Origin: Bryopsis sp. KO-2023
Taxonomy: Eukaryota > Chlorophyta > Ulvophyceae > Bryopsidales > Bryopsidaceae
Length of the DNA stretch: 64,000 nt
NCBI GenBank assembly: GCA_030272585.1
Contig: BSYQ01000002.1
Span: forward strand, 7,502,001 to 7,566,000
Direction of reading: 5' to 3'
A model generated the notes under the pieces. That model ran no database searches. It had not been told where the DNA came from and worked only from the letters and a program-made list of their open reading frames with translations. Shown piece by piece: positions 10,827 through 48,812 of the stretch (positions are counted from its first letter, which is position 1; each line of letters opens with the position of its first letter). The position numbers and the translations under genes were made by a program.

Positions 10827-11390
10827 CACGAAAATCTTGGAACTAATTTGTCTTTCTGATTGTGAACATAAATGAAGTACTGGTGGGAAACAAGAAGCAA
10901 ACGGGGCGCAGAATGATTCCAAAAGCGAAAAAACAAAAAGAAAAATTGAGGGGTCCCTCTGCTTGTCTACCATTGGTGAATCTTGTGCTCAGCTCTGGTG
11001 CATTGTCCTCCCACCAAGGCAGGCGGCCAGTGATTGCTGCTCGGTTTCCCGCCTGGCGCTTCACCCAGCACTTCATCCTTTTCACCCCCGACTCCTCAGA
11101 GAAAGCACCAGAACAGACCCACCCCTTGGAAAGGATACACCATCAACGCTCGGCACAAGACCAAGAACAGACACCTTCGATCCACGCTCAACAGTCCCCG
11201 CTTGGGTGATAACCAGGCGTTACCCTGCTCGACACTCTAAAATATAGATTTAGGTTACGTTGTTTTCAGACATTGGGGCGGAGTTCAAGCACACGCAACA
11301 AAACCAAATGTCAGTTCTGTAAGACTCCAGCACATCCTGGTTGGTGGAAGACGAGGTGCACCAGCACCCATGGTGCTGGAGCGATGACAC
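10827..11390 (+). repeat. Dispersed repeat R2, copy 2
   Basis: Closely related to 14826-15388 over its length, including TGAACATAAATGAAGTACTG, GGTGAATC, CAGTCCCCGCTTGGG and CTGTAAGACTCCAGCACA. It is directly adjacent to tRNA-Leu(TAA). Confidence 0.88.
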
Positions 11391-14825: not shown

Positions 14826-15388
14826 ATGGATGTGAAATATCCTTGGGCCAGTTGTGCCACAAAAACATCGAACAAATCTGTCTTTTGATTGCGAACATAA
14901 ATGAAGTACTGGTGAAAACCAAGTAGCAAACGAGGCGCAGAGTGATTCAAAAAGTGGTAAAACAAAGAAGAAAATTGAGCGGTCCCTCTGGATGTCTATC
15001 GCTGGTGAATCCTGTGCTCAGCTCTGGTGCATTGTCCTCCCACCGAAGCAGGCGGCCAGTGATCGCTGCTCGGTTCCCCGCCTGGCGCTTTGCCCAACAC
15101 TTCATCTATCCCACCACCGACTCCTCAGAGAAGACGCCAGAACAGACCCACCCCTTGGAAAGGATGCATCATCAACGCTCAACACAAGACCAGGGACAGA
15201 CAGCTTCAATCCACGCTCAACAGTCCCCGCTTGGGTAATAAGCAGGCGCTACCCTGCTCGACACTCTATTGTTGGGAATTAGGGCACGTCGTTTTCAGGC
15301 GTTGAGGCGGAGTTCAAGCACGCGCAACAAATCCAAATGTCAGTTCTGTAAGACTCCAGCACACTCTGATTGGTGGAAGACGAGGTGC
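14826..15388 (+). repeat. Dispersed repeat R2, copy 3
   Basis: Matches 10827-11390. At its start only a remnant of the tRNA-Leu region is left (CCTTGGGCCAGTTGTGCCAC), showing an internal loss of most of the tRNA. Confidence 0.88.
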
Positions 15389-35255: not shown

Positions 35256-36308
35256 CCATGACAAAGCAGTGACCTGAAGACAAATCCTCTTCAATTTGTC
35301 CCAATCAAAACGTAATCAATCCCCACTCCTTTTCGTAAAACAATGCACAGGGGATTCTTCTAGTCGAAACAAAACAAAACGCTGGGGCCTCGTAGTAGGG
35401 CAAGTTACATTACAAGTGGATAGGACTACAGACATACTATGAAAAGAGAGTGTAATATAACAGCCGATCTTTTTTCCCAAGATTGTAGTCACCACCACTT
35501 TATCAATGGTTGATTTGCTGAGAGGGGGCCAGAAAACAGTTTTTGTGCAAGACATGATCATCTTGCCGAACCCCGAAAGGGCGATTTCACGTACGCTGCG
35601 CAGCTGGCTGAGAAAACCCCCCTAGCCTGCAGACTGGTGGAGCCCACCATTTCTTTGGCTGGGAAAATTGACAAGGAACATAACTTCTCATAAGGTAATG
35701 ATACCGCTTTCTCTTGCGTTCGATACCAACTGGCGCCAATAGACGGTGCCCTCTATTTGCCGGTCAATGCTCTCATGAGGAGCCGCCGGATCGCCACAAA
35801 GCGTTTCTTTCCTTGTTCTCCTGCCATCGGCTGCTTTTTTTGAGCCCATTGTGGTTTCTTTTTAAGCGGAGGACCCCAGCCTCAGTGTTTTTTTTACTCC
35901 CCCTCCTCCTCGTTTGACAACGATCACACAAATGCACGGCACTGGTAATGGAATCGACATCGTCGCAAACATACCAATACTTCGATTCGAGACTCTCGAG
36001 GACTGTTGCAAATCTCTCCCTCTGTTGGTCCGAAAACCTGGCTCTGGTGAAGGTTACACTCTTTTTCGAACTGGGCTAGTTTGGAATTGGCTGACTAGAC
36101 TTATTACCTGAAGCGGTCGCAGCAGGAAAAACATTGCAGAGACAAATGCCACAAGGAAAGAGGAAAGAACCAATCACCAGTCTTGTTCTGAAATAAGTTG
36201 CTTCTTCAGATGACTCGATCAATGTTACGATCCGTCAGGGTGACGTGAAGCCTTGATTTTTGTTGCACGTGAATTTCAGAGCTGCTTTCTTTATGTTAGA
36301 AGGTTCAC
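35256..36308. other. Region upstream of F-box/WD40 gene 2
   Basis: No intact gene seen. A short trace of the small basic gene (GGCGCCAGTTGGTATCGAA on the minus strand) lies near 35720-35745. Confidence 0.45.
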
Positions 36309-37469
36309 ATGAGCGATCACGTGAGTGTCGAGTGGGAGCTGCCCAGTGGCGTTCTTGCTAGAATTTTTGAGGGGATGCGCCCAAGGACTTTGGCCAGGTG
36401 CTCCTGTGTTTCCAAGGCTTGGAACGATGTCACCAGAGAGGAACGTTTTTCTAGAAAAGTCTTCCTCGAGAGAGCCTGGCGATGTGGCAACGTTGTACCG
36501 AAGTGTATCAATACAAACAAGGAATGGCCTAGCAGTTTCACAATGTGGGGCGAGATCCTTGCGATGGTGAAAAGCACAAGAATTGATGCTGAAGTAATCT
36601 TGGTAAACGTTGAAAATGGCGAGGTCTCTACAAGAGCTGGTCCCCACCTGTGGAAGTCTTGTTTGTGTTTGATCGATGGAATGCTCCTGCGCGAGGCGGG
36701 GGATCAAGCTGTGGTTGTCTTAAAAACACCTGAATTGACAAAAATCGCGTCTCTGAGGCTTCGTTTTAAAGCTGAAGTGATTGTGGACGTTGGAGAAGAA
36801 CTCGTGGCTATTGGTGGTGAGTTTGGGTGCTTGGAATTGTGGAGCAAGATCGATTGGAGTTGTGTCGAGATTCTGAATGATGGCGGAGGTGGTGGGATGT
36901 CGTCGGGAAACGATATTCTGTGTGCGGCTTTGGCTGGGGAAGCGGGTTGGCTGGTCTGTGGGGTGAGAGTTGGGCATCTCGAAGTGTGGAGCTTGGCTTC
37001 TTACACTCGCGTGGCAACGCTGAAGGGTCACTCTTGCCCTGTCCAGAGCGTTCATGTCAATGGTAAACTGATCATCAGTTGCTCCGTCAATGGCACCGTC
37101 CGGACATGGCTTCAGAAAACTTTCGAGTGTACGCGAGTTTTCAACGTCGATGTGTCGTGGTTTCCTGTGGCGTTGAGCGAAACCAAATTTGCACACTTTT
37201 CGAGGAGCCCGATGGAAGTTGTGGTTTGTGATATTGCTGGGGAGGATCATTGCCTCAGGAAATTTGAAGTGGGAGATGAAGTCCTAGGTCTTTTCTTGAC
37301 AGAGGATAAGCTCATTGTTGTGAGGCACAATGGGAAAATTATGGTATGGGATTTTCTTGCTCACTCTTGCGTAAGAATGAAAGGTTTCTTTGGTCCGCTG
37401 CTTATTAAGAAAAAACTCGTGTGGTTTGGCATTTTGTGTTGCTGGATTCTTGGAATGATTTTTTGGTGA
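36309..37469 (+). CDS. F-box/WD40 protein 2
   Basis: 386 residues, no intron. It starts MSDHVSVEWELPSG, like gene 1 (MSDHIRIEWDLPRE). The F-box is at about residues 8-50 (LARCSCVSKAWNDV). WD40-like repeats follow but are more divergent: clear units are GCLELWSKIDW, GHLEVWSL with TLKGHSCPVQSV, SCSVNGTVRTW and NGKIMVWDF. The role is expected to be substrate recognition in an SCF ubiquitin ligase. The C-terminus (LVWFGILCCWILGMIFW) is hydrophobic and unlike the paralogues, which end soon after WDFSK; a base change or a new end is possible. ATG context is TCACATGAGC. Confidence 0.85.
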   Translation: MSDHVSVEWELPSGVLARIFEGMRPRTLARCSCVSKAWNDVTREERFSRKVFLERAWRCGNVVPKCINTNKEWPSSFTMWGEILAMVKSTRIDAEVILVNVENGEVSTRAGPHLWKSCLCLIDGMLLREAGDQAVVVLKTPELTKIASLRLRFKAEVIVDVGEELVAIGGEFGCLELWSKIDWSCVEILNDGGGGGMSSGNDILCAALAGEAGWLVCGVRVGHLEVWSLASYTRVATLKGHSCPVQSVHVNGKLIISCSVNGTVRTWLQKTFECTRVFNVDVSWFPVALSETKFAHFSRSPMEVVVCDIAGEDHCLRKFEVGDEVLGLFLTEDKLIVVRHNGKIMVWDFLAHSCVRMKGFFGPLLIKKKLVWFGILCCWILGMIFW

Positions 37470-38354
37470 AAGAGGGAGAGAAGCATTCTAAATACGGCTA
37501 ATCTCCTGACCTGCAGATGTGTACTTCCTTTTAACCACACTCTTTTCCTTGTACAATTACTTGATGATGTCAAAATTTGTCCAATCACTCTTTCTCAAGC
37601 GTCTGGGGCGTGCAATCACTCTTTGGGAAAGTGTGCATCATCCCTGCTCAACATTCTCCACCTAGCTCTGGACCCTGAATCAAGCAAGACACAAGCCCCG
37701 CCATCATCAAGAAGATGTCTTTAGTATGAACACCTAGCCTTGGAAGTTTTCTGATCCCACGTGGTCAGTGCACTCAAAAGCAGTGGCAATCTATCTGGCA
37801 TTTCTCTTTTTCCCGTTTTGCGGCTAGCAAGTTGTCTGACAAGCACGCTGACGAGCTGCTTTGAGTGCGTAGGAGGAGGGGTTGGGAAGGCACAGGATAA
37901 GAAATATAATTTTTGTACGAAAATCTTGTGGGGGGAAAAATCGGAAAAACGTTTTTAGTCTCACTGAGTGCCACTAACAGATCGGTCCTAGTGCTCGGTT
38001 TTGAAGTGTAAAAATACCAAATTGAAGGTTTTGAAGTGTAGACACAGATGGTGACACAACTTGTCCTTTGACAGATCCTGTCTAAAGGAAGGAGAAAAGT
38101 GATTGTGAACAAGTTTCTTTGGGTCAGAACCGATCGAGTCCACATGAAATACGAACCTCCCCCGAATTGTCACCCTTTGTCCTCTTCCTGTTGAAGCCCA
38201 CCCCAGAAATGAACATAAAAATCTACTCAAATCTTAGAAAAAACAACCATCCAGGATTATAACTCATCATGGTCATCTCCAAGATCCTCATCATCCCCGC
38301 CATCATCTCCACCGCCAGCTTGATAGACAGCGGCGACGATTGACTGACAGATAT
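37470..38354. other. No gene recognised; left flank of the Crypton-like region
   Basis: About 880 bp. A degenerate version of the 15-bp motif (CCAGGATTATAACTCA) lies near 38251. Confidence 0.45.
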
Positions 38355-38479
38355 CCAGAATATAACTGGGGGGCTGGCAACAGGCTGGCAACGCGTTAGC
38401 AACATTTTGACAACGTGACCCGATTACGCAATGGGACGCTCGCCAATTACTAAAGCGCTCAGTCTGCCCGATGTAACTG

Positions 38480-38527
38480 CGCAGGCGGCGAGGTGTGACG
38501 CACTCAAGTCACACCTCGCCGCCTGCG
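38480..38527. repeat. Perfect 20-bp-arm hairpin upstream of the Crypton-like gene
   Basis: Arms CGCAGGCGGCGAGGTGTGAC (38480-38499) and complement (38508-38527) enclose an 8-nt loop. It lies 31 bp before the likely start codon. Confidence 0.92.
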
Positions 38528-38558
38528 ACACGACTGATTCTTGCGTGTATCTCTAAAA

Positions 38559-41500
38559 ATGGACGATGTGACGAGCGAAACTGGGACGTTCGAGACCGAT
38601 GGGACGTGGGATGTCGACAGTGTCACCAGTGCTTCCAGTGCTGGTGACGCTGCTGATGCTGGTGTGAAACTCCATATCGATGCTGAATAAATGCACGAAA
38701 ATGAAAAATCCAGAATATAACTGGATTTTCCAGCTGACTGGTAGATTTTGCATGAGATGTTTGCAGAAAATCAAAAAATCAGAAAATCAACTCCAAAATT
38801 TTTTTACTTTTTATTTGTTCCTCAAAGGTCTAAAATTTTCAGAATTAAAAAAGTTGGCACAAGAAGGAAATTGGCGGCGTATCGCACAACTGCTTGGACT
38901 AAACAATATCACAGACGAGACGGTGGAGGTTGGCATGATAACTCAAGACCAATCCAGAAAGGAACTTTGTTCCTTGTTGTTAAACTGGAGAGAATCGACG
39001 GCGAATAATTACACGCGGCGAATCAAGAAGTACTTGGTAAATATGTGTGGTAGAGGCTGATTTCACCAAATTCAACTGATTTTCCCTGATTTTGCTCAAG
39101 GCTCCTTTTTTTTCATTCTTGAATTTTCACTGAAATCCAACTGATTTTCCCTGATTTTGCATTTTTTAAAAATTTCACTGGAATTCAACAGATTTTCTTG
39201 ATTTTGCATTTTTTTAAATTTCACTGGAATTCAACTGATTTTCCTGATTTTGCTCAAGACTGCCTTTATTTAATTCTTGAATTTTCACTGAAATCCAACT
39301 GATTTTCCCTGATCTTGCATTTTTAAAAAATTTCACTGGAATTCAACTGATTTTCCTGATTTTGCATTTTTTTTTAATTTCACTGGAATTCAACTGATTT
39401 TGCTGATTTTTCTCAAGACTCCATTTTTTTAATTCTTGAATTTTCACTGAAATCCAACTGATTTTCCCTGATTTTGCATTTTTTTAAAATTTCACTGGAA
39501 TTCAACTGATTTTCCTGATTTTGCTCAAGACTGCATTTTTTTAATTCTTGAATTTTCACTGAAATCCAACCTGATATTCCCTAATTAATTTTCATGTAGG
39601 ATTGGCTTCAGGAAAAACACCCACAAGGGTGTCACAACAATTTCCTCGTCCGACCGGGGTGGGTGATGGAGTTTCTTACGGAGGTGGATCAAAAAAAACG
39701 AAGCCTAGTGGGACAAAAACACAAAACTGCGGGTAACGAAAGGAAATACTAAAATCAGTTCGAAAATCTTTGGTAATGATGATAGTAACAAAAAATCAAC
39801 AATATTTATAAGAAAAATTAAGAATTAATTTTCTGGGGGGCTGCAATTTTCAGATTTTTTTTTTTTTTTTCTTTTTTTTTTTTTTAGTGGATTTTCAGCC
39901 TGACCTCCGAGGGGTCTTGATGCGATTGGTACATGGCCAGTCCGTTGAAAACATTATAGCAAAAAGAGAGAAAGTCACCTCAATCAACCCCGCCTTTGAT
40001 GTGCAAGTGAGTGATATTCCGTACCTTGATCACTTGTTGTGCCATGACATGTTGACACATGGTGTCCATGTGGATTTGGAAATTTTGCTTGGAGGGGTTG
40101 ACGTCTCAGGGCTGGAGCCGGCACAAGGCATTGGTATCAACGAAATCCCAACCGTGGACGGTCATGAGGTAAGCGTGATTGATTTCTGGAATTCTGTTTT
40201 TTTTTACTAATTTAATATAATAGTATTAAGAATCTGCAAAACAGAGGAATAAGGAAAAGAATTAGGAGGGAAAAAAAAAAACTATAATTATTTAATTTTC
40301 TGTGAATTTTATAGATTTCAAAGAAGGATTTTGATGGCTATGTACAAGCCTTAAACATGCTTCAGAAATTTCAGTCCATGGTCATCAAAGATTCCGGGAG
40401 AGAGCTATTGTTGCAAAATGGCGTCTTCAAAAGCTGGCGTGACAAGTGGCGCTCGGGGGTCGCTAAAAGATTAGCGGAGTAAGTGACCTCCAGAGTTGTG
40501 CGCAACTCGATTTTTCAACAACGACAACGGTACGGCAACGGCAACGGCAATTAACGGCGCCGTTGTTGCCGTGAAAACCGTTGCCGTACCGTTGTTGCAC
40601 AACGGTTTAACGGCCGTTAACGGCGGCTTAACGGCCCGTTGCAACGGCCACCGTTAACGGCGCTTTTTATGTACAGACAGCCCTTACTATAGTATTACTA
40701 ATACACAATCCACCCCGTCCCGTTCGTTCCCTTTTCGTTTCGTGAGCGAGGAAGGAAGTGAACCCGTTTAGAAAGACAACCAAACGACTCCTTATGTTCT
40801 CCCGAGCACGACGCACTCTGTCGCGTGCGAAACGAGTGAGGAACGAGGGAGATATCCCAGTTTCTGTGAAAAGTACAAAAACTGGGATATCTCCCTCGTT
40901 TCTTGCTCGTTTCGCGCGCGACAAAGTGCGACGCGCTCGGAAAAAGTTTCTCTTTTATCTGAGCTGCTTTTTCAAGGTCTAAAACGACTCCTCAACCAAA
41001 ACGACGGATGGTGTGGGTGAAGATCTACATCAGATCTTTTTTTAGGTTGATAGGAAGTTCCGTCGTTTGGCCGCTTTCAACGTCGCTAAAGTTCCGCAAA
41101 AAAGGGAACTTCCACGGGTGTTTTCACGAAGAAGAGAGCGAGAAAGAGAAAGTTCCGCCTTTTCCAAATGCTATTTTCAGAGTTGAAACCAACTAAAATT
41201 GAAAATTAAAGGAGGTAATGGGAAAAGGCGGAACTTTCTCTATCTCGCTCTCTTCTTCGTGAAAACACCCGTGGAAGTTCCCTTTTTTGCGGAACTTTAG
41301 CGACGTTGAAAGCGGCCAAACGACGGAACTTCCTATCAACCTAAAAAAAGATCTGATGTAGATCTTCACCCACACCATCCGTCGTTTTGGTTGAGGAGTC
41401 GTTTTAGACCTTGAAAAAGCAGCTCAGATAAAAGAGAAACTTTTTCCGAGCGCGTCGCACTTTGTCGCGCGCGAAACGAGCAAGAAACGAGGGAGATATC

Positions 41501-44500
41501 CCAGTTTTTGTACTTTTCACAGAAACTGGGATATCTCCCTCGTTTCTCACTCGTTTCGCACGCGACAGAGTGCGTCGTGCTCGGAAAAATCTCTTCTTAC
41601 GTTTGGTTTCATTCCTAAACGGGTTCACGACTTTCCTTACCCGCGAAACGAGCGAGACACGAACGGGACGTGGTGGATTATTCATTCCACTACTCTTAAT
41701 TGAGTAACACTAACCGTAGTAATCTGCAGCAACGGCGTTCACCGTTGCAACGGATCTGTTACCGTTAACGGCGTTTTAACGGCCATTAACGGTCACACGG
41801 AACCGCTGACGGTAACGGTACGGCAACGGCCCGTTACCGTTAACGGCGCCGTTATTAACGGCGCCGTTGCAACGGCGCACAACTCTGGTGACCTCTCTTT
41901 TTCTTATATATTCTTTCTTTTTTGTTTTTGTTTTTTTTTTTGTTATTGTTACTGTTTTTGTTTTTGTTTTTGTTTTTGTTTTTGTTTTTGTTTTTGTTTT
42001 TGCTTTTAAATCATTTTGAAATCTGCAGCCCCTAAAAAAAAATGGGTGGGTGGGGCTGCAGATTCTGCAGCCCTTATGAATGGAAATGGGTGGATGGGCT
42101 GCAGATTCTGCAGCCCTTATGAATGGAAATGGGTGGATGGGCTGCAGATTCTGCAGCCCTTATGAATGGAAATGGGTGGATGGGCTGCAGATTCTGCAGC
42201 CCTTATGAATGGAAATGGGTGGATGGGCTGCAGATTCTGCAGCCCTTATGAATGGAAATGGGTGGATGGGCTGCAGATTCTGCAGCCCTTATGAATGGAA
42301 GAATTGGCATCCCCCAAAAAAAATGGGTGGATGGGGTTGTAGAATCTACAGCCCTTATGAATGGAGGCGGAATGGATGGGCTGCAAATTTTGCAGCCCTT
42401 ATGATTGGAAGGAATAGATGGGCTGTGGATTCCGCAGCCCCCATGATTCGTTTGTTTGAACCCGTTTGAAACAGGTATTTGTTTCAAAACTCAGTTGTGT
42501 TACATTTTGGAGAAAACCAACAAGGTCAATGAAGATCGAGAGCACCCCCCAGTTATATTCTGGGAGTGAAGGAGTGAAAGAGCTAATCCAAAACATTATG
42601 GGCTTTACTCCAAAACAACATTCTGGGATTTAAAATAAGAAAGACGACTAACTTTCAAATATCTCCAATCAATGGTGTTTAAACAGGAAATTCTCCGATC
42701 GCCAGCGAGGCGGTTTGGGGGACTCGTTTTCGGCCGAAACAAAGAAACAAATACAGGAGGAGTACATGTGCAACCCCTCCCCTAATGCAATGCAACTGAG
42801 GGCCTTGTTTTTGATGAGCTGTGCGACACTTGGGAGGGGGGACGATATGAGAAAAGTTCAATACTCTGACCTTTCGATCGAGAAGCTTCCAGATTTTTCC
42901 CCTCGCCCAATGACCATCCTCAATATAACGAAGCATATCGTAAGTCCCGGAAATTTGCCCCTTATATTCTGGAAATTTATCGAAAGGCGACCGATTCTGC
43001 AAATTTATTGGAAGGCGACTGATTATATTTTGAAAAAAACATCTCAACTGAAATTTTAATGAAATGATCCAAAACAAATAAAAAATAGTTTCTTTTTTTT
43101 CGAAACTATTGTTTGTTTGTGCTCACCATGAATTGCGAAACCGTTTCAGGGTAAGAAGAATGATACCGGAGTGAAAGAACATTTGTCTTTGGCTCCGCAT
43201 CGTGATCCATTGGTGTGCGGAGTCGTGGCACTGAGTTTACTCCTTGTTTGGAGAGAACATCATTTGAAGCGGGACCCTCCGAATGCGTTTTGCCCTCGGC
43301 GCTCTTGGTATGGTTGGTACCTCTTCCAGGGTTCATCGCCAACCACAGAGATGGATTACAATGTCCATCTCGAGGGCGCCAAGCGTGCCCTCAAGGCCGT
43401 CCAGTTTTCCACCACCCACCCTACTCATTGCCCCCGGATCTCCGGGGCTAATGAGTTGAGGAAAGCTGGGTGAGGTTTTCCTAAGATTATGTCCTACTTT
43501 CTAATAATTCAGTTGGTTTCCTCCGAGTTCATTTTTTTTTTAATGTTTTATATTTATCAAAACAGGGCGGACAACGGGGTCGTGCGTTCAATGTTATTGC
43601 ATTCACGGAGAGACGACGAACTTTCGTACCTCCACACTCCCCCGCCCGAAGGCTTGTTCATCATGGCAGGTTTTCGAGGGGGGGAACATGACATGTTCAG
43701 AATGGACGTGGACCCGGGCGACTATTTCCCCACCATGACAGGATCGATTTTCCCTGACCTGGAAACACAACTTGAATCAAAGCGAAGGGTAAGCTGGACT
43801 CTTTGGGAGACCTGCAACCAGTAAATTTCAGTTTTGTTTTCCCACCTCCTGCTCATCGTTCTTCTTTCTGTCCACCTGACCAAGGAGTTACTCTGAATAT
43901 ATATCTGGCTTGGGTGGGATTCGAACCCACCATTCCCCAAAGAACCAAGCAACAAAAGATATGTTAGCTGACTGAACATTGTGCTCCCAGCACAATCAGT
44001 CGTATACTGCAGCCTTCAAGGATGTGTCCGGGGAAAGATATCTTGAGGCGAAATTGTTCCTTCGACGCATCTTCTGGGCAAACTTGCCTGCACTACATGA
44101 CAGGTATACATTCTTTTCTCTTCATTTCGGGCAAATGCAATGTAACAAAAAGATGTCAGCTCCCAGAATATCCGCCCTATTTTGGTTGGGTACACAAATC
44201 AGATGAAACATCCAGAATATAACATTCATGAAATACCAATTTTATGAAACGTAATTTTTCTGTTGCCCTGCCTGATTCCTCACCACCTTCCAAAGTTTGG
44301 ATCCTCCCCTGAAAATCCCAAGCATCACCGACTCCCACTTTTCGCACTTTGCATTCTGAAGGCAATTTTTCATGTGGAATTCATCCTGGCGAGGTATTCT
44401 CTCACATGATACACAAGAATCGCCGCAATTCTCCGTCGTGATCACATCTTCTTCGTGGATCGGTGCAGGTATCCACAGCACCCAATATTCGAGATTCCCG

Positions 44501-46784
44501 AACTGAGGATGCATGAACAAGACTTCCTTTCATGGAAGGTTTTGCAAAGCACCTATCTCCAAAACATGGGCTGCTCCACAGAGGTTCAGCCGCATGATGA
44601 CCTGGCGGCGGCTGCTCTGAGCTTGGCTCTTGCTGCTGTCCAACGCGCCACATCTTCAGGCAATCCCAACCTTGCACATCCCACAACGTTTGTTCTTCAT
44701 ATCGTCGCCTCGTCAATAAACAAATTTGCAGAACCCTAACAGTCCCGAAATCAACCAGATCTTTGTCTACAAAAAAAAAATTATATATAATATCTTTTTT
44801 TTTCTTTTATCTCACCACAAACACGGACAGCCTCTCTTCCACTTGTTTCAGGGATTGCTTTGCAATATCCGTCAACATCACCAGCAGGCGCAAGCCAGCC
44901 CTTCGATTTACATGGAGAACGGCCACCTTGGCCTCCTGTCCTTCACCCCTTGCTGCAAACGTTCCCGATCACAACGCCTTGTCCAACAGCAGCACCGCCC
45001 CAGCCACTACCTACAGGGGAACAGACAACACACCAGACCACGACAGGTGCGCCCTCACTTCACCCCTTGCTGCAAACAGTCCGGGCCCCGCACAACCCCC
45101 TCCCAGCTCCCTCCACACTCCTTCGTCCGATTGCACCAACAGTGGGGCAGAGGTCGGCTATTCATACGCCAAATCCATCCCCATTATCAACATCAGCAGC
45201 AGATGCCGGCCAGCTCTCGGTATTACCTGGAGGACATCCACCTTTGCTACACCCCCGCCTGCAAACATTCCCGTCCACATTGCCTTTCCCAAGAGCAGCA
45301 TCTCCCCAGCTGCAGCCTGCACATCACGACATCACGACAGGTGCGCCCTCGCTTCACCCCTTGCTGCAAACAGTCCGGGCCCCGCACAACCCCCTCCCAG
45401 CCCCCTCCACACTCCTTCGTCCGATGGCACCAACAGTGGGGCAGAAGTCGGCCATTCATACGCCAAATCCATCCCCATTATCAACATCAGCAGCAGATGC
45501 TGGCCAGCTCTTGGCATTACCTGGCGGACATCCACCTTTGCTACACCCCCGCCTGCAAACATTCCCATCCACATTGCCTTTCTCAACAGCAGCATCTCCC
45601 CAGCTGCAGCCTGCACATCACGACATCACGACAGGTGCGCCCTCGCTTCACCCTATGCTCCAACGTGCAGGGGGGCCAAGTGCACAGGGCCTCATGACAC
45701 GTCCCCATTTGCTTCACCCGGTGCTGCAACCAGTATCAAGCCCAGTGCTTCGCCCAAGAACACCGGGTTCCCAGCCGCAACTTGCAAGGGGGCGCGAAAC
45801 CTGGCACGTCACGACAGGTTGGGATTTGTAGGATTTGAGGTACATCCTTGCGTTTCAAAGCATGAACACAACACACACACATACCTACATCTGCACATTC
45901 AGGTGATTTGGAATGACTTCTGGTGGCCCTTTGGTTCATGAGAAATGTAAAATTAAAGCAAAATCTGCATATGGTCAAACTGAGAATGTAGGGAATGCAG
46001 TGTCCAGAATGTAGCCAGAGTACTACCATGACTCATCAGAAAGATAATGACCAGAAATTCATGTGACCAAGCTGGTGACAATTATTTTGGTTGATCCAGA
46101 AAGTCTGAGACCCTCACTCACCGTACCCCAAGCTCCTCCCCACCTGCCACAACAGTCCGCTGCTTCTCTGCTGGTTCCGAGGCCTGTCTCATCCCAGCTT
46201 CTCCCACTGAACCAACCTATGCCACAGCCACAAAAATTTGGCGGCGTTACTCTTCCCCCTGTGAAGCTCCAAAATAGGGACCTCCGGAGCTTGAATGGTA
46301 ATGATCATCCTGCAACAGAAAAAGACGCCCCCCCCCCCGCAACCCTGACATTGAAGTTCTTCGAAAAACGCAATCACAAGTCCGTTTTATATATAAGCAA
46401 CAGCCAGTTATATTCTGGAGCTACATACTTCCACAACAATCACGGCTCCGGTTTATTGTTTTTGAAGAAAGCGATTCCCATCACATCTGGGAGGAGTGGA
46501 AGAAGGGCATTCACCTGACCCCGTTGGTGCAAACGGCTCCTTTAAAGGCCCTCTTCAGCCTTGGTCGACCTGGCATGTGGAGGGTGAACGATGGAACTCA
46601 CCGCTCGTTCTTCACACGCCGCTACAAACTCTACGCACACATGGAAGCGCTCAAAAACAGGGTTGGGGAACGAGCGATGCTGGAATTAATGGAGGGATGG
46701 CGAGCGAGCATTAAACCATCATCACTTTCCAAATTGCTGAGGGACTTGGAGGCGAAGAAAATACCACCCTCCTGTTTTGTTTGA
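38559..46784 (+). CDS. Crypton-like tyrosine recombinase with Death-like and GCR1_C-like domains
   Basis: Likely DNA recombinase or DNA-binding protein derived from one. Exons whose phases agree: 38559-38661 (uncertain start, MDDVTSETG), 38843-39036, 39600-39732, 39888-40168, 40315-40478, 42687-42939, 43150-43469, 43566-43788, 43991-44103, 44469-about 44739, then 44852-45817, 46100-46297 and 46468-46784. The first ten join to about 684 residues. The recombinase core has LGRGDDMR (first Arg), THCPR (HxxR), LLH and, nine residues on, SYL (His then Tyr), followed by GSIFPDLE. This order matches Crypton-type recombinases and the related CBF3/Ndc10 fold. The last three exons share phase and end in a domain like GCR1_C. 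The junction from exon ten to exon eleven is not resolved, because no phase-1 donor was found, so the gene may end at the TAA at 44737 with a second gene following. Confidence 0.68.
38843..39036 (+). CDS. Death-domain-like exon of the Crypton-like gene
   Basis: Encodes about 65 residues with the Death-domain pattern of six helices: LKKLAQEGNWRRIAQLLGL, then ITDETVE, SRKELCSLLLNWRES and YTRRIKKYL. The W..IA..LGL, the LL..W and the spacing are typical of the Death superfamily, which forms homotypic complexes. The flanking splice sites are TTTTCAG and GTAAAT. The similarity is by eye; a generic DNA-binding helical N-domain is the alternative. Confidence 0.5.
39060..39590. repeat. A/T-rich tandem repeat in an intron
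   Basis: Composite units built from CACTGAAATCCAACTGATTT and CACTGGAATTCAACTGATTT with poly-T spacers. Larger blocks beginning ATTCTTGAATTTTCACTG start near 39116, 39271, 39431 and 39543. Confidence 0.92.
40491..41887. mobile_element. Foldback hAT-like element in a Crypton-gene intron
   Basis: 1397 bp with terminal CAGAGTTGTGCGC and its complement, flanked by the 8-bp direct repeat GTGACCTC (40483-40490 and 41888-41895). Nearly the whole element is an inverted repeat with its centre near 41195. The outer 170-190 bp on each side are filled with AACGG/CCGTT subterminal repeats. Each arm contains a smaller hairpin around GGGATATCTCCCTCGTTTC. It encodes no transposase. The first target copy overlaps the splice donor GTAAGT at 40479, which remains usable. 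Confidence 0.9.
41925..42003. repeat. (GTTTTT)n tract
   Basis: At least eight GTTTTT units preceded by related T-rich sequence, between the foldback element and the minisatellite. Confidence 0.93.
42043..42445. repeat. 43-bp minisatellite with a hairpin in each unit
   Basis: Six or so near-perfect 43-bp units and three or four degenerate ones. Each has GGGCTGCAGA, a T, then TCTGCAGCCC: 10-bp arms around one base. Confidence 0.93.
42687..43788 (+). CDS. Recombinase catalytic exons of the Crypton-like gene
   Basis: Three exons (42687-42939, 43150-43469, 43566-43788) carry the likely catalytic set. ALFLMSCATLGRGDDMRKVQ provides the first Arg. HPTHCPRISGANELRKAG provides His and the second Arg. 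MLLHSRRDDELSYL provides a His and, nine residues later, the Tyr that would attack DNA. MAGFRGGEHDMFRMDVDPG and IFPDLETQL follow, as in CBF3-domain-2-like proteins. All residues expected for catalysis are present, so the enzyme may be active. Confidence 0.65.
43911..43985 (-). pseudogene. tRNA-like relic within an intron
   Basis: On the minus strand the T arm GTGGG TTCGAAT CCCAC is perfect (B box) and GTTCAGTCAGCTAACA resembles an A box. Acceptor and anticodon arms do not form. Confidence 0.35.
44852..45817 (+). CDS. Pro-rich repeat exon(s)
   Basis: A C-rich stretch in which all three forward frames are open for about 970 bp. The frame with repeated LHPLLQT, TTGAPS and LLRPxAPTVGQ is preferred. 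It has the fewest residue changes between the two 297-bp tandem units (six, against eight and eleven in the other frames), and its phase fits the next exon (46100). It would be a flexible linker of about 320 residues before the C-terminal domain. Confidence 0.45.
46100..46784 (+). CDS. C-terminal exons with a GCR1_C-like domain
   Basis: Exons 46100-46297 and 46468-46784 join in phase 1. After a Pro/Gln-rich stretch comes SDSHHIWEEWKKG, LKALFSLGRPGMWR, RRYKLYAHMEALKNRVGE and LLRDLEAKK. The pattern of W..EW..G, a Trp and Arg, then a helix with R..Y is that of the GCR1_C DNA-binding domain often found at the end of fungal Crypton-type proteins. The stop is TGA at 46784. Confidence 0.55.
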
Positions 46785-48071
46785 CTTGTTGTGAAACACT
46801 AATTTTAAAGAAGCCCGCAGCTTGGACTCATACCTTGGCCACCGGGCCAGAAGGGCCAGAAGGAATATTCTGGTCAAAACCGGGAAGTCAATACGGCGAA
46901 GGGAGTTCTGGGACTCCAAAAAACTGGAAAGAGCCAATAAGAGCCCAGTTATATGGATGCGTCATGATGGCTCACTTCTGCAACACCACTGAAGGACCAA
47001 AAAGAAAAGGCTTACAAGCTGCCCGATGCTGTTCATGCGATTCGGATAGTTGTTTCTTTCGATCGAGCTCTTTTTCAAAACCAGCCACGTTTCCCTTCAC
47101 CTCCACAGCTTTCTTTTCCACCTCCATTCTCACGCCTCCAATCCATGTTGGATAGCACTGGGGAATAAAGAAAGAAACACCATCACAAATACTGAGGAGT
47201 GACAAAACCACACGACCTGGAGAAAGAATTATGCAGGTGTAGAACACGGGCCTATGTTCTACACCTGCCAATATGCATAGATCGCCAGCTATATTGTGGG
47301 TAGAACGTGACAAACATACATTGATTGATTCATGTCAAAGGATGTACAGACTAAGCACTGATATTGCCAGGCTGCCAGTTATATTGTGGGTCTCTTGCGA
47401 GTCCATTGCTGACACCGAAAGACCCCTCCAAGTCCCAAGGAAAATAACTCACCGCTGGTGCAGTGGTCTTGACCGAGAACGAGGTTGCTCACAGCCACCC
47501 AGTTATATTCTGGATCTATTCTAAATCTATTGTCATGGCAACAGAAAATACAACAAGGGTCAGTAGAGTAGGAAAAGAAAAGAACACAGAGGTTGCTGAG
47601 AATATTATGCCCACAGCGCTACCTTTGATTTCAATTTTTGCGAAATGTTTTGAATCGATGCTGAGTGATTTCCTATGTTTCTCGTGTTCATGAAAAGGGC
47701 TTCCAATCAAGTCTCAACCAATGCTTGTGAGTTGCCAGGGAAAGGCACTTTGTTTTTTGTGTCTTTTCGTTCTACACACATACATTTCGCCACAGGTTGA
47801 GCACCCTCTCTTGCTCTCTCAAAGAAAGAAGAGCATGGCTGGACCCAACGAATCTCGATGAAAACACATCACTGCAAAAGACACAAGAAAACAACTGTTG
47901 GACCAGGAAAGCAAAGCAGCAAGCACATTTCTTGTTGTGGATATATATCCTGGTTACCCAGGTTATATATCATATGAAACAGTCTGTCCAGACCTGGCGA
48001 AGACAATAAAACACGGATCCAAAGATGGGAAAACCAACCGAAAGGAATAGAGTTCCAGAACAAACCGGGAA
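46785..48071. other. Right flank of the Crypton-like region
   Basis: No gene recognised. It contains three copies of the 15-bp motif at 47285-47513. A minus-strand frame near 46972-47150 (VRMEVEKKAVEVKGN) is helical in character but unsupported. Confidence 0.45.
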
Positions 48072-48812
48072 ATGTCGAAGATGGTCCACACACCGCAACC
48101 ACACGTACCCATGTGCGAAGTCAGGCAGCGTCTCAGGGAGCAAGCCCGACGGGCGCAAGCTCCAGTGGAAGGTGGGGTGGCGGCGGAAACGGCCCCGACG
48201 GTCTCGACGGGCGGACCAGGGGGATCAACCCCCGCGAGGGAGGTTCCACAAAGCAGAGGACGACGTGCGACAGAGGAAGCGAAGACCGAGGGTAAGGGTC
48301 GAAACCCTCGCGCCCAGAAAAAGTGCGAGATCGCGTTGCCAACGCCACGTGGCTCCGTCGGGCTGGGAGGGGGGGAGGGGGGGTGTACGGCCGTTGCCAA
48401 CGATGTTGCCGTGATGTGGCGAACGCGATCGCGCGCCAGTAGTATCCCGTGGTCAGGGGAAGCTGATGAGTACGAGGGGAGCTCATTAAAAATCGAACAT
48501 GAATTGATCTGTTTGACTGTCAGCAAGGAGGAGAGTGGAGCTAGTCAGCAGACTGCTGAGGCATTTCGACAGTCCTTCAGAGATAATTGCTGGTACTTAG
48601 AAGAATCCCTGCTTCCTGGATTGTCGAAAGTAAGTAAAACGATGACAGAATAATGTTTTGCAGTGTCGACAGCCTTCTAAAAGTGCTCTGATTTCTTTTG
48701 TTTGGGGCTTCAGGAGCGGGGAAAACAGTTGCAGAAAGTTCACAGGATTCTGAGGGCAGCGCATGGAGCTGTAGACACCTGGAATCAAGCTGATGGGCTT
48801 GAAGGGATCTAG
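48072..48812 (+). CDS. Hypothetical two-exon protein
   Basis: Exons 48072-48629 and 48714-48812, joined in phase 0 by a GTAAGT donor and a TTCAG acceptor: about 218 residues. The first third is basic and Pro/Gly-rich (VRQRLREQARRAQAPVEGG), likely disordered, and its DNA is clearly more GC-rich than the surroundings. The last part is helical (TAEAFRQSFRDNCWYLEESL, then KQLQKVHRILRAAHGAV). The family is not recognised. It may continue into exons downstream if the last exon uses the internal GTAGAC donor instead of the stop. Confidence 0.45.

Follow-up and report, generated by a model that had tools for sequence, protein, structure and literature searches.

The recombinase gene

The window analyzed here is a stretch of 64,000 nucleotides from the Bryopsis sp. 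KO-2023 genome (C2:7502001-7566000 of 91.09 Mb in 28 contigs), a genome in which chlorophyll a/b-binding proteins gave 107 exon-level matches; we take these proteins to be of the green type. On its forward strand, positions 38559-46784 hold a recombinase gene of 13 exons with a product of 1151 amino acids and a single, terminal stop codon. Ten exons were identified first, from reading frame and splice sites, and the count rose to 13 once frames conserved in relatives were added. The introns comprise 11 of the GT-AG type and one of the GC-AG type, located after exon 10. The exons were supported by the gene model and by their conservation in a copy on contig C7 (copy C, below), and where indicated by Pfam matches or the family alignment:

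38559..38661, + strand: exon 1, with the start codon (phase, splice sites, kept in the C7 copy)
38843..39036, + strand: exon 2, N-terminal module (Death-like, sub-threshold) and start of the SAM-like domain (Pfam)
39600..39732, + strand: exon 3, remainder of the SAM-like match (Pfam)
39888..40168, + strand: exon 4
40315..40478, + strand: exon 5
42687..42939, + strand: exon 6, NDC10_II, R342 and K374 (Pfam, alignment)
43150..43469, + strand: exon 7, NDC10_II, H469 and R472 (Pfam, alignment)
43566..43788, + strand: exon 8, NDC10_II, H495 and Y504 (Pfam, alignment)
43991..44103, + strand: exon 9
44469..44659, + strand: exon 10, with the GC donor
44852..45817, + strand: exon 11, Pro-rich repeats
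46100..46297, + strand: exon 12
46468..46784, + strand: exon 13, GCR1_C and the stop codon (Pfam)

Exon 13 was assigned to the recombinase gene because two relatives have the same last exon 3' of their catalytic exons. In copy C, all 13 exons align without gaps and every splice dinucleotide is kept. Exon mismatches between the window copy and copy C number 34 in 3456 positions, against 309 in 5388 plus 1314 gap columns in the remainder of the element, a part that takes in low-complexity introns. The 18 synonymous and 16 non-synonymous codon differences correspond to a dN of 0.006 and a dS of 0.022 (Nei-Gojobori). The initial annotation had described an intron-rich gene with ordered exons and matching phases, and this description held, with phase agreement at all 12 junctions and every exon kept in the C7 copy; its limits of 38559-46784 span the gene, but the element that contains the gene is larger (38352-48447). 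A Pfam search of four open frames in the last 1.7 kb of the element gave no E-value better than 0.15, and the recombinase is the sole gene identified in the element.

Two introns contain repetitive DNA. Positions 40491-41887 in intron 5 of the window copy are a 1.4-kb foldback element with an 8-bp target duplication (GTGACCTC) and CAGAGTTGTGCGC ends, presumably hAT-like, which is absent from copy C. Tandem-like repeats at 42040-42440 (intron 5) and 39060-39590 (intron 2) differ in number between these two copies.

Domain organization and catalytic residues

The whole protein was searched against Pfam and matched NDC10_II at residues 327-607 (E 6.8e-15). Within this region lie R342 (in LGRGDDMR), K374, H469 and R472 (in THCPR), H495, and Y504, the last two being nine residues apart. 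We take these six residues to be the catalytic set, from general knowledge of XerD/Cre-type recombinases. The order R, HxxR, H, and Y over three exons had been proposed from the sequence, and it stands as described: R, K, H, R, H, and Y are invariant in all four aligned members, the rows of the relatives having been assembled by hand. NDC10_II matches all four members of this alignment and Phage_integrase three of the four. When the four-member profile was compared with the PDB, yeast Ndc10 ranked top (E 0.0014 and 0.0053, over 35 positions), followed by the integron integrase IntI4 (E 0.52); a PDB search with one single sequence gave nothing useful.

The C-terminal end resembles GCR1_C. The last exon alone scored 22.8 bits (E 1.2e-4), just below the Pfam cut-off of 23, and the last exons of two relatives scored 19.9 bits (E 9.2e-4) and 23.0 bits (E 9.8e-5). 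On the whole protein, the match covers residues 1052-1123 and is weaker (15.8 bits, E 0.018, below the cut-off), and SAM-like integrase N-termini match weakly from residue 84 (E 0.06). Profile searches on the spliced protein recover the recombinase part of the initial annotation firmly, through NDC10_II, and its GCR1_C part weakly, whereas the Death domain that it had also named is unlisted at E up to 1 on the 1151-residue protein. The protein is predicted to run from an N-terminal module through a SAM-like core-binding domain, an NDC10_II catalytic domain, and a Pro-rich linker to a putative GCR1_C DNA-binding end.

Element ends, copies, and putative derivatives

The limits of the element were set by homology to two further copies:

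38352..48447, + strand: whole element, 10,096 bp including both TATCC (homology limits against copies B and C)
38352..38356, + strand: left TATCC, identical in copies B and C and in the diverged copy D
48443..48447, + strand: right TATCC, identical in copies B, C, and D

The window copy is referred to as A; B (C2:7576793-7586889) is inverted and lies 26 kb from A, and C is on contig C7. Homology among these three ends sharply, with TATCC at each end and different flanks. A single 1-base indel distinguishes A from B over 10,096 bp, and from this near-identity we infer recent transposition instead of gene conversion. A fourth, diverged copy (D, at C2:8553135) also has TATCC at both ends. The survey of genome copies proposed with the initial annotation returned a near-identical, a close, and a diverged copy, each bounded by TATCC; near full-length close copies numbered only three.

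As judged by eye, terminal inverted repeats are absent, with no pairing between the two ends from their outermost base onward. When the two ends are joined, short imperfect inverted arms appear with 9 of 13 pairs and their best center exactly at the junction. Since 142 of 1000 random 80-mers reach nine pairs somewhere, the putative palindrome at the circle junction, of the kind that recombinase sites may have, is only suggestive.

A pattern for the left end, allowing at most one mismatch, matched the genome 26 times (10 exact; reversed control, 0), and six of the 26 matches correspond to motif sites in the interior of A, B, and C. At L058 (C2:2092630) and L078 (C12:2166968), a left end and a right end are separated by tens of bases at most, and both loci look like very short internally deleted derivatives. 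They belong, with L075 (C8:5211897) and L076 (C9:5432546), to a set of very short fragments that carry the left end of the Crypton; in some of these, a right end or another TATCC is no more than tens of bases away, and the fragments are perhaps minimal non-autonomous derivatives. A 240-bp element at C9:1150527-1150766 has two left ends that face one another as an inverted pair. From the right end at C8:4966922, element sequence runs on for 362 bases only. The spliced protein gave at least 79 exon-level matches in the genome at E up to 0.01 (134 candidates, 65 scored), and other loci matched GCR1_C (five) and NDC10_II (13). One scan of viral_contigs with exon 7 for viral relatives returned 11 pattern matches, none of which was confirmed.

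A repeated 15-bp motif

The motif CCAGTTATATTCTGG, with at most two mismatches, occurs eight times in the window, where 0.10 are expected, and all eight occurrences are inside the element. They were located by motif search:

38355..38369, - strand: motif at the left end
38710..38724, - strand: motif, exact
42549..42563, + strand: motif, exact
42958..42972, + strand: motif, 2 mismatches
46404..46418, + strand: motif, exact
47285..47299, + strand: motif, 2 mismatches
47375..47389, + strand: motif, 1 mismatch
47499..47513, + strand: motif, exact

The occurrences are on the minus strand in the left part of the element and on the plus strand farther right; a ninth match, with three mismatches at 44212, runs contrary to this order. 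Across the genome there are 22 exact occurrences (reversed control, 0), divided among A, B, and C (15, five each), the short inverted-ends element on C9 (two), and single left ends (five). The 6.9 kb of copy D that were searched contain the terminal motif only, with one mismatch. Our guess is that the motif could be a docking site for the recombinase.

Insertion sites and rearrangements

At a paralogous empty site (C2:6714868-6715172), the left flank of A adjoins the right flank of B with a single TATCC between them. All 120 flanking bases match, and identity over 1500 bases per side is 95.6% and 93.4%. The site is within the coding sequence of an HSP70 gene (HSP70 2.6e-61), near the C-terminus; the gene ends in HDEL and on those grounds is presumably of the BiP type. 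In the window, the corresponding feature borders the element:

38257..38351, - strand: 3' end (HDEL) of an HSP70/BiP-type gene, cut by the insertion; in the empty site it joins the right flank of B

The corresponding junction between B's left flank and A's right flank occurs at C8 5419542-5419731 (102/120) and C9 1747050-1747239 (96/120), with the misses mostly in the outer left bases, where the B flank is another dispersed repeat. It follows from these pairings at the C2, C8, and C9 sites that A and B have swapped right flanks. Each of the two copies is situated in one part of the HSP70 gene. In the simplest account, the 26 kb between A and B would have been inverted after insertion, an event that would also have placed the two parts of the HSP70 gene approximately 36 kb apart.

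At the site of copy C, both paralogues with both flanks carry approximately 460 bp between them, and the element in copy C replaces this native DNA. In the one paralogue that was read, a native TATCC lies at each border of the approximately 460 bp (247863 and 248328). In two more paralogues, which have the left flank only, the first site reads TCTCC and is followed by this same native DNA. The replacement would be consistent with joining by microhomology or with a second exchange involving TATCC.

Either the recombinase or homologous recombination could have been the agent of the A-B inversion. That host repair accounts for both events, with homologous recombination producing the inversion and end-joining at short repeats producing the loss of DNA at C, without the recombinase, has in our judgment an even chance of being right: the 10 kb of near-identical inverted sequence are ample for homologous recombination, and the 5 bp of TATCC are sufficient for microhomology. 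Against it, a native TATCC marks the limit of the DNA missing at C in the paralogue that was read, as exchange at TATCC predicts, although microhomology predicts the same outcome at that border.

Window positions 38202-38351, the HSP70/HDEL flank, have 13 more matches at 81-99% identity, 12 on C2 and one on C1, which may represent an expanded chaperone gene family or pseudogenes thereof. Beside the insertion, an open frame of 389 amino acids (36300-37469, + strand) has F-box-like (6.5e-9) and WD40-type matches. Two SRP RNA genes lie approximately 4 kb apart on the minus strand (10943-11233 and 14975-15262); the best match is the metazoan family for one and the plant family for the other.

Identity and mobility of the element

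With NDC10_II, a GCR1_C-like last exon, TATCC-bounded ends, an empty site, and near-identical copies, the proposal of a Crypton-like tyrosine recombinase with a GCR1_C end is upheld, and we conclude with high confidence that the element is an autonomous Crypton, a DNA transposon moved by its tyrosine recombinase. Movement of Cryptons is described by analogy with prokaryotic elements in the 2011 survey (Kojima and Jurka 2011, PMC3212892). For the present element, the recombinase, which is probably catalytically active, would join the two TATCC ends to form a circle, and the circle would then recombine with a genomic TATCC to leave an insert bordered by TATCC on both sides. Points that count against the Crypton model are that the second empty-site candidates match at 102/120 and 96/120 only, that the flanks of the C site never meet in the paralogues found, that the GCR1_C match falls short of its cut-off on the whole protein, and that gene conversion could likewise explain the near-identity of A and B.

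The Crypton could also be dead by now, a silent copy that looks intact, with A and B homogenized by gene conversion. The scarcity of near full-length close copies (three) and the 1.4-kb insert in intron 5 of A would agree with this, but all 13 exons are open in both A and C with splice sites kept, and A and B differ by one base while occupying two different sites; we therefore consider a dead element unlikely. The Crypton is apparently recently mobile and, as an intron-rich GCR1_C element, known in kind.

The N-terminal module

The initial annotation had read exon 2 as Death-domain-like. Exon 2 alone matched Death (PF00531) with 16.5 bits (E 0.0092), and exon 2 of the C7 copy with 19.1 bits (E 0.0015), both below the Pfam cut-off of 22.6; on a 139-residue piece, the E-value was 0.092. 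Matches were limited to two of seven family members, the window copy and the nearly identical C7 copy, with none in the other five. A seven-member profile of the N-terminal module found nothing in the PDB at E up to 10. For exon 2 alone, the PDB offered no match other than a helical repeat designed de novo (E 0.022), and a longer N-terminal profile gave 11 PDB matches, mostly antibody chains (best E 0.19). With sub-threshold scores, five of seven members lacking a match, and a module profile lacking a PDB match, the assignment of a Death domain is not supported.

The end of exon 2 also matches an integrase SAM-like N-terminal domain (Phage_int_SAM_4, E 0.0015 on 109 amino acids, in two of seven members), and T53, Y57, R59, R60, and Y64 of exon 2, which are invariant, fall within the matching stretch. 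The module is common to three diverged lineages (D/C26, C1/C8, and C4), in which it is 31-54% identical to that of the window copy, and it was therefore not newly acquired by the window copy. Capture of a Death module from the host, as suggested earlier, is disfavored by this distribution and, weakly, by a coarse search of the host genome, in which no Death match exceeded the cut-off; the one match had an E-value of 0.98, and exon 2 itself was unlisted in that search. No paper linking Crypton, Death domain, and transposon was found in the open-licence literature searched. Most likely, the module belongs to the N-terminal domain of the recombinase, as a helical extension of it.

A more elaborate reading holds jointly that the module is a Death-fold assembly domain directly ahead of the SAM-like domain, that a Death-type interface would build the synaptic complex on the repeated CCAGTTATATTCTGG sites, and that the recombinase itself would reshape the chromosome of the host, inserting, inverting, and exchanging DNA between TATCC sites in a cassette-like manner; we hold this combination to be very improbable. 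Less probable still is that the locus is a domesticated, Crypton-derived host gene fused to a captured Death-type assembly domain: the sub-cut-off matches of exon 2 (E 0.0092 in A, 0.0015 in C) and a dN (0.006) lower than dS (0.022) between A and C speak for it, but such constraint is also expected of an active transposon, five of seven members have no Death match, the module profile has no PDB match, and the gene, for which domestication had been suggested, sits between intact TATCC ends in an element with copies at several different sites and an empty site.

Comparison with known Cryptons

The Crypton was compared with known systems by their described features, and statements on CryptonF, CryptonS, and the catalytic site of Ndc10 follow PMC3212892. 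Like the element, CryptonF of fungi and oomycetes combines a tyrosine recombinase with GCR1_C and has short terminal direct repeats without long terminal repeats, although its repeats are mostly of 6 bp, as opposed to the 5-bp TATCC (PMC3212892). The element further differs from CryptonF in its 13 exons, its N-terminal module, and a host rich in chlorophyll a/b-binding protein genes. CryptonS, from oomycetes and a diatom, has direct repeats of 5 or 6 bp, mostly TATGG, which resemble TATCC, but is reported there to lack the GCR1_C that the element has (PMC3212892). Yeast Ndc10 (CBF3 subunit A) shares NDC10_II and ranks top among the PDB matches of the family profile, with an E-value of 0.0014 and a short matching stretch; it is a domesticated centromere protein that has lost the catalytic site (PMC3212892), whereas the element keeps all six residues. 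Likeness to the Death domain (PF00531) itself is confined to the sub-threshold exon 2 matches of the nearly identical window and C7 copies, with none in the five other members. The host table in PMC3212892 has a diatom as its sole alga and includes no plants, and no report of Cryptons in Bigelowiella or chlorarachniophytes was found in the open-licence literature searched.

What is unusual about the element is its 13 exons, its host, the occurrence of TATCC ends together with GCR1_C, and the evidence on its sites. Its exact ends, its four copies bounded by TATCC, the clean paralogous empty site, the one-base difference between A and B over 10 kb, and the intact gene make it a ready substrate on which excision and integration of a Crypton could be tested directly. 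In addition, two Cryptons in inverse orientation seem here to have inverted the 26 kb between them and parted the two pieces of an HSP70-type gene.
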